Below are positions 1-57,525 of a stretch of DNA of 64,000 nt, in pieces. Both the position numbers and the translations under genes were made by a program. The notes under the pieces were generated by a model. The model was not told the origin of the DNA. It saw nothing but the letters and a program-made list of their open reading frames with translations, and did no database searches. Source of the stretch: Clostridiales bacterium COT073_COT-073 (lineage in GTDB: Bacteria > Bacillota > Clostridia > Lachnospirales > Vallitaleaceae); NCBI GenBank assembly GCA_003858485.1, contig RQYD01000002.1:1-64000 (forward strand). The letters run 5' to 3'. Numbering within the stretch: the stretch's first letter is position 1; each line of letters starts with the position of its first letter.

Positions 1-89
1 TCTTACGAAGTATGTGGCGAAAGCGGGGGAACCCATGTGCCCGCTCCCTGGAGCGGGATAGAGCCAAAAAAGACTGTGGGAAAGTTGAG
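1..89 (+). mobile_element. Modular hairpin element (MITE-like), right part, cut by window start
   Basis: This is the right-hand end of the dispersed element seen intact at 13496-13770. It has the last part of one hairpin module, the arm-loop-arm CCCGCTC/GAGCGGG, and the terminal GTGGGAAAGTTGAG. The left end lies outside the window. The bases after the end are TTATTAA, a TA-rich heptamer like the targets of the other copies. Confidence 0.85.
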
Positions 90-1236: not shown

Positions 1237-3015
1237 ATGAAATTAACCGTAAGCAAATCCAAAAATACAGCGTCCTTTTATGTACAAAAGTCGATTCGAA
1301 AAGAAAATGGCACTTCTACAACCATCACCATTGAAAAATTAGGCACACTAGATGAAGTAAAAGCAAAAGCAAATGGCAAGGATCCTTATCAATGGGCCCA
1401 AGAGTATGTCAATGAACTGAACCGAATGGAGTATGAACACAAAAAAGAGATTATTATTCCTTATTCTCCTTCCAAACTCATGAAAAAAGGAGTACAAAAA
1501 TCTTTTAACTGCGGTTATCTCTTTTTGCAGGATATCTATTATAGTCTGGGATTAGATAAAATATGCCAAGCAATTGCTGACAAGTATAAGTTTGAATATG
1601 ACCTAAATGATATCTTGTCAAAGCTTATTTATACCCGTATCCTCTATCCATCCTCAAAACTTTCCTCCTACAAACAATCCGCCACTTTTATAGAACAACC
1701 TACTTTCAAACTTCATGATGTTTACCGTTCCCTTTCGCTTCTTTCTAAGGAAAGCGATTTCATTCAGTCAGAACTTTATAAAAACAGTCAGAACGTGCTA
1801 AGCAGACGCAAAGATATTCTCTATTATGACTGTACCAACTTCTATTTTGAAATCGAAGAAGCCGACGAACTAAGAAAATATGGCAAAGCCAAACAAAACA
1901 AACCGCTTCCTATTGTCGGTATGGGATTGTTCATGGATTATGACGGCATTCCTCTGGCCTTTGATATTTATCCGGGGAATCAGAATGAACAGCCTACCCT
2001 AAAGCCGATCGAAAAAAGATTGCTTAACGATTATGGTCTTGAGGATATCATCGTATGTACCGATGCCGGACTTTCCTCAAAGGAAAACAGAAAATTCAAT
2101 GACAAGTCTCTGTTTGGGCATAGAACGAGAAGTTTTATTACAACCCAGTCCATCAAACAGCTTCCCGAGCACCTTAAGGATTATGCCCTTGACAAAGATG
2201 GTTGGCACCTGCCCGGTGACAGCAAAGTATATAACCTGGATGATATCAGCGAAGAAGCGGATTACAACAAGGTTTTCTATAAAGACCGATGGATTGTCGA
2301 AGATATTTCAGGCAAGAAGAAAAAAGAAGGAGACAAACCATTAGAGCAACACCTTATCGTTTCCTTTTCCCCGAAATATAAAAAGTATCAGCAAACAATT
2401 CGGCAGGGACAGATTAATAGAGCCATGAAATTGATTGAAACCGGAAACTATAAACGGAGAGCGAAAAATCAAAACGATCCTCATCGCTTCATTGAGCATA
2501 AGGCTGTTACCGCGGACGGCGAAGTATGTTCTAACGATCATGTATTCTTAAATGAGGAGGCTATCCGCAACGAACAACAGTATGATGGTTTCTATGCGGT
2601 ATGTACGAACCTTGAGAATATAAGGGTAGAACAGATTATAAGGATAAATCGGAAACGCCGGGAGATTGAAGAATGTTTCCGAATTATGAAAACAGAGTTT
2701 AAGGCAAGACCTGTCTATGTGCAAACCCAGGACCATATAAAGTCACATTTTCTTACCTGTTTTCTATCCCTTTTTATTTTCCGAATCCTTGAAAAAAGAC
2801 TTGGGGAAGCGTTCACTTGTGAGGAGATCTCCGATACATTAAGAGATATGATAATGGCCAGACCTGGAGAAAAACTTGGATATATAGCCAGTTATACAAG
2901 AACCGATTTGACTGATAGACTACATGAAACTGCTGGATTTAGAACGGACTATGAGATTATAAACGACATAAACATGAAAAAAATAATACGAAAAACAAAA
3001 AAGAAAAAGAAGTAA
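1237..3015 (+). CDS. IS1634/IS4-type DDE transposase
   Basis: A 592-residue transposase that cuts and joins the element's ends. The DDE triad can be traced to Asp in YYDCTNFYFE (about residue 199), Asp in VCTDAGLSS (about 276) and Glu in RKRREIEECFRIMK (about 478), which matches the Y-R-E-K signature of the IS4 superfamily. The N-terminus (residues 1-110) is a typical accessory region of IS1634-type proteins. The C-terminus is very basic, ending in a lysine-rich tail. GGAGG lies 9 bases before the ATG. The frame is intact, so the element may still be active. A strong hairpin terminator follows at 3041-3084. Confidence 0.92.
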   Translation: MKLTVSKSKNTASFYVQKSIRKENGTSTTITIEKLGTLDEVKAKANGKDPYQWAQEYVNELNRMEYEHKKEIIIPYSPSKLMKKGVQKSFNCGYLFLQDIYYSLGLDKICQAIADKYKFEYDLNDILSKLIYTRILYPSSKLSSYKQSATFIEQPTFKLHDVYRSLSLLSKESDFIQSELYKNSQNVLSRRKDILYYDCTNFYFEIEEADELRKYGKAKQNKPLPIVGMGLFMDYDGIPLAFDIYPGNQNEQPTLKPIEKRLLNDYGLEDIIVCTDAGLSSKENRKFNDKSLFGHRTRSFITTQSIKQLPEHLKDYALDKDGWHLPGDSKVYNLDDISEEADYNKVFYKDRWIVEDISGKKKKEGDKPLEQHLIVSFSPKYKKYQQTIRQGQINRAMKLIETGNYKRRAKNQNDPHRFIEHKAVTADGEVCSNDHVFLNEEAIRNEQQYDGFYAVCTNLENIRVEQIIRINRKRREIEECFRIMKTEFKARPVYVQTQDHIKSHFLTCFLSLFIFRILEKRLGEAFTCEEISDTLRDMIMARPGEKLGYIASYTRTDLTDRLHETAGFRTDYEIINDINMKKIIRKTKKKKK

Positions 3016-3100: not shown

Positions 3101-3179
3101 ATTTTATCAAATTTAATTAATTTAATCAAATATTTTTTATAAAAAGCCACTTTTATATGCAAATATTTGACATTTTTCC
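3101..3179. repeat. Right copy of 79-bp target-site duplication
   Basis: Direct repeat of 1023-1101 with a single difference at 3104. It restores the -35 region of the iolB promoter on this side of the insertion. Confidence 0.85.
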
Positions 3180-6168: not shown

Positions 6169-6190
6169 CTCAACTTTCCCACAGTCTTTT
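6169..6190 (-). repeat. Remnant end of the modular hairpin element
   Basis: CTCAACTTTCCCACAGTCTTTT matches the right terminal repeat exactly, but the following bases do not continue the element. It is a solo, truncated end between the MoxR and VWA genes. Confidence 0.65.
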
Positions 6191-7238: not shown

Positions 7239-7367
7239 CTCAAATTTTCCACATTCCTCGGAACAGTCTTTTTTAGGTGTGTGTCATAAAAACCTGATTA
7301 GGCAGTAAAGCACATCTGTCCGCTCCCTGGAACAGGATAAAGCAAAAAAGACCATAGGAACATTGAA
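7239..7367 (+). mobile_element. Decayed copy of the modular hairpin element
   Basis: Both ends are recognisable: a left end with CTCAAATTTTCCACATTCC and AACAGTCTTTTTT, and a right end with CGCTCCCTGG, AAAAAAGACC and ATTGAA. Both are mutated. No clear hairpin module remains. The flanking heptamers (ATTATTA, TTAACTA) match only in part, consistent with age. Confidence 0.7.
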
Positions 7368-7530: not shown

Positions 7531-7626
7531 CTCAACTTTCCCACAGTCTTTTTTGGCTCTATCCCGCTCTGGAGAGCGGGCACATGGGTTCCACTATCGC
7601 AACTTGCTTCGCAAGATTGCTTTCGA
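7531..7626 (-). mobile_element. Truncated hairpin element forming the EIIA leader
   Basis: This is the right end of the element (CTCAACTTTCCCAC, the CCCGCTC hairpin, and one 22-nt module hairpin with arms CTTGC/GCAAG) in reversed orientation. The left end is missing. The copy runs directly into the EIIA start codon at 7631. Confidence 0.85.
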
Positions 7627-7630
7627 ATTT

Positions 7631-8104
7631 ATGTTTGGCTTATTTAAAAAAACAGAAACTTTAAATGCTCCGGTTAGTGGTAAAGTAATTCCGATTACGG
7701 AAGTTCAGGATGAAGTCTTTTCCCAGAAGATGATGGGGGATGGTTTTGCCATTCAGCCAAATGACAATGCTATCTATTCTCCGGCTGATGGTGAAATAGT
7801 GCAGGCTTTTAAAACAAAACATGCCCTCGTGCTTCGGACCAACAATGGAATTGAACTATTGCTTCATGTTGGCCTTGATACAGTTGAACTCAAGGGTGAA
7901 GGATTAACCATTCATGTAACGGATGGTCAAAAAGTAAAGGCCGGAGCTCCACTGATCACCGCTGATTTTGAACATATCAAAAGTCAGGGTAAGGGCACAG
8001 ATGTGATCATTGTCTTAATGAATCCAGATAAAATGAGCAGCTTTGATGTAACCTATGCAGATACTGCTGCTAATGAACCGGTATGCAAGATCAAATTAAA
8101 ATAA
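7631..8104 (+). CDS. PTS glucose-type EIIA protein
   Basis: A 157-residue cytosolic phosphocarrier of the Crr/EIIA-Glc family, which takes phosphate from HPr and passes it to a IIB domain. The active-site pair is visible: His64 in KTKHALV and the phospho-accepting His79 in LLLHVGLDTV. The order FGLFKK, APVSGKV, SPADGEI is typical. I choose the ATG at 7631 because homology begins there. The frame also stays open upstream through the repeat to a TTG at 7553. No Shine-Dalgarno sequence precedes 7631, because the adjoining bases belong to the inserted element, so translation may be weak or unusual. No IIB/IIC gene is near; ptsH and ptsI are at 49-51 kb. Confidence 0.9.
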   Translation: MFGLFKKTETLNAPVSGKVIPITEVQDEVFSQKMMGDGFAIQPNDNAIYSPADGEIVQAFKTKHALVLRTNNGIELLLHVGLDTVELKGEGLTIHVTDGQKVKAGAPLITADFEHIKSQGKGTDVIIVLMNPDKMSSFDVTYADTAANEPVCKIKLK

Positions 8105-13456: not shown

Positions 13457-13495
13457 CAGGGCAAATTCATCCATACCAAAACCTTAACATAATAA

Positions 13496-13770
13496 CTCAA
13501 CTTTCCCACGTTCCCTGGAACAGTCTTTTTTATGGCGTGTGCCGCGGAAGCATCTTTTCGCAGAAAAGTGCGAAAGCGGTGTGCAACCGCAAGCAACTTT
13601 GCAAAGCAAATTGCGAAAGCGTGTGCTGCGATAGCAATCTTACGAAGTAAGTTGCGAAAGCAGGGTGTGCCGCGAAAGCCATCTTACGAAGTATGTGGCG
13701 AAAGCGGGGGAACCCATGCGCCCGCTCTTCAGAGCGGGATAGGGTCAAAAAAGACTGTGGGAAAGTTGAG
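13496..13770 (+). mobile_element. Intact modular hairpin element, four modules
   Basis: This is the reference copy, 275 bp. It starts CTCAACTTTCCCAC and ends GTGGGAAAGTTGAG. It is flanked by a perfect duplication of ATAATAA (13489-13495 and 13771-13777). After a left hairpin GTTCC/GGAAC (13510-13521) come four modules with 22-nt hairpins at 13550-13571, 13593-13614, 13634-13655 and 13678-13699. Each ends in the box GCGAAAGC. A right hairpin CCCGCTC/GAGCGGG lies at 13721-13738. It has no transposase. Confidence 0.9.
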
Positions 13771-13778
13771 ATAATAAT

Positions 13779-19216: not shown

Positions 19217-19403
19217 TGTTATCTCCTCTTAACCAATTTCTATTATCTGCTCTCTGCCTATAAGACCTTTATTGAATATATAACCGGCTTCAAATATCAT
19301 GCCATCAATTTAAGACACTCTGTTCAATCCTGCACTGATACGTCTGATCAGCAAAAGCGCTCCATTCTCCCGAAAAGAGAGTTGACTTTTGCCGTATTAT
19401 TTA

Positions 19404-19549
19404 CTCAACTTTCTCACCGTCTTTTTGGTTCTATCCCGCTCCAGGGAGCGGGCACATGGGTTCCACCGCTTTCGCACTTTTCTGCGAAAAGATGCTTCCG
19501 CGGCACACGCCATAAAAAAGACTGTTCCAAAGAACGTGGGAAAGTTGAG
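19404..19549 (-). mobile_element. Intact modular hairpin element with one module, inside the SUF operon
   Basis: A 146-bp minimal copy with both terminal repeats, a single module hairpin (19474-19495, arms CTTTTC/GAAAAG read on the minus strand) and the CCCGCTC hairpin. It is flanked by a perfect 7-bp duplication TTATTTA (19397-19403 and 19550-19556). The right duplication contains the sufC stop codon. Confidence 0.92.
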
Positions 19550-20287
19550 TTATTTAATAAATTCTTCAAAACCCTTTTCATTAATAATTTTTGACAGTTC
19601 AGCTCCACCAGTTTTCACAATTTTACCATCAACTAAAATATGGACATAATTTGGATTTAAATAAGACAATAGTTTATCATAGTGAGTAATCACAATAATT
19701 GCATTATTTTCGCCGGCAAAAGCCTTAACTCCATCTGCCACCACTTTAATAGCATCAACATCAAGTCCAGAATCGGTTTCATCCAAAATCGCCACTTTCG
19801 GCTGCAGGGTCAACATTTGCAAAATTTCATTTTTCTTTTTTTCACCACCAGAAAAACCTTCATTCAGATAACGGCTGGCATATTTCACATCCATATTCAG
19901 CAATTCCATATTTTTCATTAATTCTCTTTTGAACGGAATAACTTTTTGGGCTTCTCCGGTAACAGCCGTTTTGGCTGTGCGCAAAAAATTCTCAACAGTA
20001 ATTCCAGGAATTACTTCCGGTGTTTGAAAACTCATAAACATTCCGGCTTTTGCTCTTTCGTCCACTTTCATATCCAGCAAATCTTTACCTTCCAGGAGCG
20101 CTTCGCCTTCGGTCACTTCATATTTTTCATGGCCCATTAATGTATAAGCTAAGGTTGATTTTCCCGCCCCGTTTGGTCCCATAATAATATGAATTTCTCC
20201 GGGATTTACTGTTAAATCAATACCTTTTAATATTTCCCGCTCATCAATCCGGGAATGTAGATTTTTAACTTCTAATAATGCACTCAT
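19550..20287 (-). CDS. sufC: SufC, ABC-type ATPase of the SUF system
   Basis: A 245-residue soluble ABC ATPase that drives conformational change in SufBCD. Walker A is GPNGAGKST (residues 37-45), the signature is FSGGEKKKNE, and Walker B is VAILDETDSGLD, followed by the family-typical IVITHYDKLL. It is the first gene of the operon. Its TAA stop (minus strand of 19550-19552) lies within the 7-bp duplication made by the element insertion, so the protein was left intact. A likely extended -10 promoter is at 20374-20382, about 90 bases before the ATG. Confidence 0.93.
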   Translation of the reverse strand: MSALLEVKNLHSRIDEREILKGIDLTVNPGEIHIIMGPNGAGKSTLAYTLMGHEKYEVTEGEALLEGKDLLDMKVDERAKAGMFMSFQTPEVIPGITVENFLRTAKTAVTGEAQKVIPFKRELMKNMELLNMDVKYASRYLNEGFSGGEKKKNEILQMLTLQPKVAILDETDSGLDVDAIKVVADGVKAFAGENNAIIVITHYDKLLSYLNPNYVHILVDGKIVKTGGAELSKIINEKGFEEFIK

Positions 20288-20313: not shown

Positions 20314-20336
20314 CTCGACTTTCTCACAGTATTTTG
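20314..20336 (-). repeat. Decayed element end in the suf leader
   Basis: CTCGACTTTCTCACAGTATT is 17 of 20 identical to the element's right terminal repeat; nothing else of the element is recognisable. Confidence 0.45.
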
Positions 20337-26545: not shown

Positions 26546-26590
26546 CTGCAATCGAATGAAGTTTTTTATTTTATTCTCATTTGCATAAAA

Positions 26591-26693
26591 AAGGGGCTGT
26601 TGCATTTTAAGATTTTTACACAAGATATAGGATAAAATTTCTGTGTTTTATCACAATATATTGTGTGAATTCTGTATTTTGCAACAACCCCTT
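26591..26693. terminator. Two-tier hairpin between convergent genes
   Basis: AAGGGGCTGTTGCA (26591-26604) pairs with TGCAACAACCCCTT (26680-26693). The loop contains the perfect palindrome CACAATA/TATTGTG (26652-26665). T runs on the minus side fit termination of the ABC permease gene. The arm GGGGCTGTTGCA is also a common transposon end, but no flanking duplication is seen. Confidence 0.65.
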
Positions 26694-26776
26694 AAAAAAT
26701 CTGACTTTTTGGAATCAGTTCATCCACTAGAATCATGCTACTGCTTTTTTATCAAATATATACTGCTAAAAGTACT

Positions 26777-29292: not shown

Positions 29293-29325
29293 AACCAATT
29301 CTCCTCTTTCTCTTAATATTATCCA

Positions 29326-29553
29326 CTCAACTTTCCCACAGTCTTTTTTGGCTCTATCTCGCTCCAAAGAGCGGGCACATGGGTTCCACCGCTTTCGCCA
29401 CATACTTCGTAAGATGGCTTTCGCGGCACACGCCTTTCGCAACTTGCTTCGCAAGATTGCTTGCGGTTGCACACTTTCGCAACTTGCTTTGCAAGATTGC
29501 TTTCGCAGCACATGCCTAAAAAAGACTGTTCCAAGGAACGTGGGAAAGTTGAG
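29326..29553 (-). mobile_element. Intact modular hairpin element, three modules, inside the sugar operon
   Basis: A 228-bp copy with terminal repeats CTCAACTTTCCCAC and GTGGGAAAGTTGAG, and a perfect 7-bp duplication TTATCCA (29319-29325 and 29554-29560). Three module hairpins lie at 29398-29419, 29439-29460 and 29479-29500. It separates the binding-protein gene from its ATPase. Confidence 0.92.
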
Positions 29554-29592
29554 TTATCCATTAATAAAAGGGTAAAGTACGGGAAAGCCTTC

Positions 29593-56807: not shown

Positions 56808-56955
56808 CTCAACTTTCCCGCCATCTTTTTTGCTTCTGCCCCGTTCCAAAGAACAGGCATATATTACCCATTTAATGAAGCCTGTCAAAAATTTCGTTTT
56901 TACGCAGATGTCCATCCCGGCTCAAAACCATTCCGGGAAATATAGAAAAGTTCAG
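56808..56955 (-). mobile_element. Decayed copy of the modular hairpin element
   Basis: The right end (CTCAACTTTCCCGCC and CTTTTTTG) and the decayed left end (GAAAAGTTCAG) bracket 148 bp. The inside resembles the variant module seen at 57409-57476, with CCCATTTAA, GCCTGTC and TTCGTTTTT. The flanking heptamers TCTATTG and TCCATCA match at 4 of 7. Confidence 0.65.
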
Positions 56956-57242: not shown

Positions 57243-57525
57243 CTCAACTTTCCCACGTTCCCTGAAACAATCTTTTTTATGGCATGTGCCGCGGAAGCAT
57301 CTTTTCGCAGAAAAGCGCGAAAGCGGTGTGCAACCGCAAGCCATCTTACGAAGTAAGTAGCGAAAGGTAGGTTGCCCACCCGGGCAGAAAAACGAAGTTT
57401 TTCGACAGGGTAGGTTGCCCACCCGGGCAGAAAAACGAAGTTTTTCGACAGGGCATGTTAAATGGGTGATATGTGCCCGCTCTCCAGAGCGGGATAGAGT
57501 CAAAAAAGACTGCGGGAAAATTGAG
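57243..57525 (+). mobile_element. Modular hairpin element with two standard and two variant modules
   Basis: A 283-bp copy with both terminal repeats (the last reads ATTGAG). Two ordinary module hairpins lie at 57298-57319 and 57340-57361, followed by two identical 43-bp units of a different module (57366-57451). The flanking heptamers TGATTAG and TGGTTAA match at 5 of 7. Confidence 0.88.
57366..57451 (+). repeat. Perfect tandem duplication of a 43-bp variant module
   Basis: Two identical 43-bp units, each with a GCCC/GGGC hairpin and an AAAAAC-GAA-GTTTTT hairpin. The GAA loop is the one used by the ordinary modules. Identity of the two units suggests recent duplication. Confidence 0.88.

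Follow-up and report, generated by a model that had tools for sequence, protein, structure and literature searches.

A MITE family known from a single genus, with hairpin-cassette interiors and probable ISPepr1-type mobilisation

A short, gene-free stretch of DNA at positions 13496-13770 of the 64,000-nucleotide sequence analysed here (the window) raises the question of what kind of repeat it represents and what moves it. The first-pass annotation had described it as one of three copies of a mobile element, and these copies indeed lie at 13496-13770 (forward strand, 275 bp), 19404-19549 (reverse strand, 146 bp) and 29326-29553 (reverse strand, 228 bp), each between perfect heptamer duplications: ATAATAA (13489-13495 and 13771-13777), TTATTTA (19397-19403 and 19550-19556) and TTATCCA (29319-29325 and 29554-29560). 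The copies were said to begin with CTCAACTTTC and to close with its inverse, which holds in general, but the left end of the 19404 copy reads CTCAACTTTCTCAC, with one change within the 14-mer and agreement over the first ten bases. The two ends of the element are alike without being identical. The A-end has the structure CTCAACTTTCCCAC-GTTCCnnGGAAC-AGTCTTTTTT and the B-end the structure CTCAACTTTCCCAC-AGTCTTTTTT; the terminal inverted repeats (TIRs) measure 14 bp, and the ends form an inverted repeat of about 25 bp, one of them carrying an additional palindrome of 12 bp. A further, C-type end in the congener G002 reads CTCAACTTTCCCCTGATCGAAGTGC. The 13496 copy, which comprises four cassettes, has its A-end on the left, including a GTTCC..GGAAC hairpin, and its B-end on the right, and is flanked on either side by type II/IV secretion genes of the F- and E-type. 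The other two copies have the B-end on the left; that at 19404 is located between suf genes, where it touches the stop codon of the gene for a SufC-like ABC ATPase, and that at 29326 in an ABC-transporter operon, with an ATPase gene on one side and a binding-protein gene on the other.

The window holds more copies and remnants than had been annotated, ranging from full, decayed, truncated and contig-cut elements to solo ends. A full copy of 283 bp at 57243-57525 (forward strand) contains the CCCGGGC..GAAAAACGAAGTTTTTC cassette twice and has an eroded target-site duplication (TSD), TGATTAG/TGGTTAA, with 5 of 7 positions conserved. The right, B-end part of a copy that is cut by the contig start occupies positions 1-89 (forward strand), and a decayed copy with mutations in both ends spans 7239-7367 (forward strand; right end set by inspection). 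On the reverse strand, there are a copy with an intact B-end that is truncated within a cassette (7531-7625), two solo B-end remnants (6169-6190 and 20314-20335) and a truncated B-end remnant (56808-56880; right limit approximate). At 7531-7639, the truncated remnant makes up the leader of a gene and stops a few bases before its start codon.

Beyond the window, the genome-wide search proposed in the annotation gave 242 matches to the 14-mer CTCAACTTTCNCAC in the host genome when up to one mismatch is allowed, compared with 2 for a reversed-pattern control, an excess that chance cannot account for. The family is present about 120 times in this bacterium. The host genome (G000) is a 3.54-Mb draft of 166 contigs, several of which end inside copies. 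By sampling stretches around approximately 100 of its ends and around copies in two congeners, G001 and G002 (the latter complete, 3.2 Mb), we compiled a catalogue of 87 copies in which both ends could be recognised in the three congeneric genomes. Single copies in this catalogue range from 65 to 343 bp, and 78 of the 84 classifiable ones lie outside open reading frames, with 56 between tandem, 14 between divergent and 8 between convergent genes; the remaining 6 fall within an ORF call. Searches of 38 other relatives, of viral contigs and of plasmids returned zero copies. A scan of genome contigs gave matches only in G001 and in two archaeal sequences, the latter judged to be due to chance. 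The family is thus known only from the genus of its host, and our literature searches found no paper on it.

The mobility of the element is well shown. Tabulation of the flanking heptamers revealed an exact 7-bp repeat in 63 of the 87 paired copies; four further copies (L031, L112, L128 and L159) have a 6-bp repeat instead, and exact repeats of 8, 9 or 10 bp are absent from the 87 pairs. When left and right flanks are swapped between copies, perfect matches arise in 67 of 3306, 0 of 90 and 0 of 342 combinations in the three genomes (2%, 0% and 0%). The targets follow the palindromic consensus TTAWTAA, with T1 and A7 each reaching 93% and A3 and T5 81% when both strands are pooled. Wherever an orthologous site could be read in a relative, the element was missing and a single heptamer was in its place. 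At the position of the 19404 copy, G001 has the junction TTATTTTACAAATTC with a single TTATTTT, as opposed to TTATTTA twice in the host genome, and G002 likewise lacks the element; at the L115 site, G002 contains one exact TTATTCA. The relatives also lack the element at the sites of the 13496, L093, L103, L110 and L132 copies, with flanks too diverged for the heptamer to be read, and at 13496 both are devoid of the whole stretch. Furthermore, two copies in G002 (L043 and L045) are identical across 151 bp and lie in different targets (TSDs TCCATAA and TTATTTA), which points to recent movement on the G002 lineage. The flank statistics, the single-heptamer empty sites and the identical copies in different targets thus uphold the earlier proposal that the element truly transposes, inserting into AT-rich targets with a stagger of 7 bp. 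At two further loci (L096, positions 1004-1347, and L050, positions 1429-1653), two adjacent copies have one heptamer in common, as if the border of one copy had served as the insertion site of its neighbour.

The same observations bear on the notion that the family is no transposon but a repeat of host-RNA or terminator-like nature that recombination has spread and that is maintained for its structure. The 275-bp copy in the window folds strongly as RNA (z -6.5), base changes in the cassette stems leave pairing intact, and between tandem genes the coding strand coincides with the A-first strand in 40 cases versus 16 (p 0.002), all of which would suit such a repeat. However, only insertion accounts for the target duplications, the empty sites and the occurrence of identical copies at unrelated loci, and Rfam has no family matching the element, so that we regard this explanation as highly improbable. 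The evidence for an origin by insertion nevertheless leaves room for a secondary role of the element in RNA.

What class of mobile element, then, does the family represent? Prokaryotic miniature inverted-repeat transposable elements (MITEs) are defined as sequences of less than 500 bp with TIRs of about 4-30 bp (PMC10969869), and the lengths of 65-343 bp and the 14-bp TIRs observed here lie within these limits. The exact 7-bp repeats in 63 of the 87 copies, together with the empty sites, and the multicopy, chiefly intergenic occurrence (242 ends; 78 of 84 copies outside ORFs) are likewise those of a MITE. In addition, the element is far too short to encode a transposase, and no ORF of 100 amino acids is confined to any of the three initially annotated copies; hence, it is predicted to be moved in trans, as previously proposed. 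By description, it is similar to the Chunjie MITE of Geobacter uraniireducens, which measures 178-235 bp, has conserved TIRs and repeats and exists in dozens of full and partial copies, most of them intergenic (PMC10969869). The family is new, whereas its kind is already known, since modular MITEs such as BOX and BrickBuilt exist. It adds to this kind a high-copy, genus-restricted representative whose ends, targets and empty sites are unusually clean.

The ends also provide a link to a transposase subgroup. Members of the ISPepr1 subgroup of the IS4 family share the end signature YT-AA-YTT---A, generate 7-8-bp repeats and insert into AT-rich targets (PMC2266710, Table 1). The TIR agrees with this signature, which is found at a frequency of 3.1e-4 of window positions, at 8 of the 8 conserved positions at both ends. 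The 5'-CT ends, the duplication of exactly 7 bp in 63 of the 87 copies (6 bp in four) and the TTAWTAA consensus are equally similar to the subgroup (PMC2266710). While the first-pass annotation did not recognise any named family, these features thus refine its view, and it is likely that we are dealing with a MITE family with ISPepr1-type ends for which a DDE transposase of the ISPepr1 type provides mobility in trans. ISPepr1 members themselves are 1.5-1.6 kb long and encode their transposase (PMC2266710), an enzyme with DDE and YREK motifs, whereas the elements described here are mostly 65-350 bp in length and non-coding. Other groups with matching ends were considered as well. IS701 (6 of 7 signature positions), IS10 and IS1634 were discarded on account of their repeats of 4 bp, 9 bp and typically 5-6 bp, respectively (PMC2266710), and ISPepr1 was chosen because, among the matching groups, it is the only one whose 7-8 bp fits the 7-bp repeat.

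If this assignment is correct, a DDE transposase made elsewhere would bind both CTCAACTTTCCCAC ends and excise the element, whose 3' ends would then be joined to a TTAWTAA-like target, one to each strand, at positions staggered by 7 bp. Repair would finally convert the stagger into the heptamer duplication. The cut-and-paste chemistry, the action in trans and the ISPepr1-type nature of the enzyme are all inferred.

The gene for such an enzyme, bounded by the same ends, was searched for and found neither in the host genome nor at the sampled ends of the two congeners. In the host genome, the 3 kb inside approximately 100 B-type ends, as far as the contigs extended, did not contain any gene enclosed by a long TIR pair, and the unpaired ends sampled in the complete G002 genome did not belong to any gene-bearing element with MITE ends. 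Similarly, searches of the congeners with the profiles PF01609, PF12762, PF13612 and PF00872, rather than with an ISPepr1 transposase as query, did not yield a transposase with these ends. PF01609 has only three matches in G002, namely an IS4-like element whose ends differ, a decayed copy of this element and a longer open frame that lacks the MITE ends. The assignment to ISPepr1 is therefore built on just three features, the ends, the duplication length and the target, and the enzyme is predicted to be ISPepr1-like. It may have been lost, may lie in an assembly gap or in other strains, or may belong to a family other than those covered by the four profiles. With identical copies present in G002 and no enzyme with such ends detected, both trans-mobilisation and transposase loss become testable.

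The IS4-like element of G002 (L078, end core CTTGAGTTTCCGCA) was rejected as the mover, because three intact relatives (L213, L227 and L214) have duplications of 9, 9 and 10 bp, as opposed to 7 bp in the MITE. These relatives are about 1.57 kb long, have CTTGAGTTTCCGCA ends and come from other genera of the order; fragments of elements of this type also exist in the host genome (L222 and L229). L078 at the same time serves as an independent case on which the end-signature method checks out: its ends fit the IS50 signature at 7 of 7 positions, and the repeats of its relatives compare well with the 8-9 bp reported for IS50 (PMC2266710). A decayed IS4-like transposase gene with a YREK motif (L082, positions 1222-2117, contig C89 of the host genome) adjoins 39 bp of B-end-like MITE sequence. 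The left end of this remnant reads TTTGAGTTTCCCCA, and a matching TSD was looked for and is absent. As a weak lead, it is possibly the relic of a related autonomous element.

A variant of the above reading retains the MITE and replaces its mover with another DDE enzyme, be it IS701-like, that of the IS1634-family element at window positions 1237-3015 or that of the IS4-like element in G002. The end core CTnnAnTTTCC is common to the MITE and the latter element, the ends match the IS701 signature at 6 of 7 and the IS1634 signature at 3 of 3 positions, and the IS1634-family transposase gene lies in the window itself, 10 kb away. This gene is intact (NCBIfam NF033559, 336 bits) and lies between two exact direct repeats of 75 bp (1027-1101 and 3105-3179); IS1634 and IS1549 have been described with long repeats that vary from 8 to 514 bp, with a mechanism that is not known (PMC2266710). 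The 75-bp repeat of this element, the 4-bp and typically 5-6-bp duplications of IS701 and IS1634 and the 9-10-bp duplications of the G002 type all deviate from a 7-bp repeat that fits ISPepr1 only, and we consider a mover other than ISPepr1 unlikely.

Between its ordinary-looking ends, the element has an unusual interior of interchangeable hairpin cassettes. One to about five of these units, each about 36-50 bp long, follow one another in varying order, and because their number varies, copy lengths are stepped (about 147, 153, 190, 228, 238, 275 and 283 bp). We infer that cassettes change by duplication and by recombination between copies. There are looser precedents for this architecture. In the BOX elements of Streptococcus pneumoniae, which are likewise interspersed, non-coding and intergenic, conserved end modules flank a variable number of structured modules (PMC3049150), but sequence and genus are different, and the family described here combines distinct cassette types with exact 7-bp duplications. 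BrickBuilt of Porphyromonas gingivalis is a MITE with a variable number of repeated internal units, which are, however, 23-nt tandem repeats (PMC4596501) instead of hairpins of about 36-50 bp.

The cassettes fold strongly in single-stranded DNA as well (z -7.3 for the 275-bp window copy) and mostly carry one class of loop, C(GNA)G, on one fixed strand. On the A-first strand, triloops closed by C-G are GAA in 62 cases, GCA in 18, AAA in 17, ACA and GGA in 4 each and GTA in 3, and C(GNA)G triloops on stems of at least 5 bp account for 75 of 111 inside copies, compared with 8 of 313 in flanking DNA. Stems vary while pairing is kept (second pair A-T 65, G-C 47, T-A 21), with 84% of the cassette stem pairs being Watson-Crick versus 25-30% when one arm is slid, although none of these loop and stem counts are independent, the cassettes being related. 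Stem pairing is also no proof of a selected function, because template switching at replication can keep the arms of a palindrome alike. DNA mini-hairpins with C(GNA)G loops, of which GCGAAGC is an example, are known to be extraordinarily stable. It is therefore tempting to ask whether ssDNA folding shapes the interior of MITEs, and we tentatively raise the possibility, doubtful as it is at present, that the interior is selected as folded ssDNA. Hairpins on an exposed strand would then aid transposition, copy survival or the interaction with the host, with the DDE ends remaining ordinary.

The one-strand hairpins, their common C-G-closed loop class and the strong ssDNA folding could suggest a single-strand mobile element of the IS200/IS605 or REPIN/RAYT type that uses hairpins as its substrate. 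The B-type copies of G002 moreover mostly point the same way with respect to replication (14:2), whereas the A/C-type copies do not (12:13); since the bias is limited to the B-type, we did not use it as an argument. To our knowledge, IS200/IS605 and REPIN/RAYT elements make no target duplications, and exact 7-bp repeats with inverted ends are the rule in the present family, so that a single-strand mechanism has very little to recommend it over DDE transposition of a MITE.

The window also harbours a second, unrelated repeat family. At 26587-26694, between convergent genes, there is a palindrome of about 105 bp (GGGGCTGTTGCA...TGCAACAACCCC) that has many copies in G001 and G002 and resembles either a terminator-like repeat or a further small mobile element.
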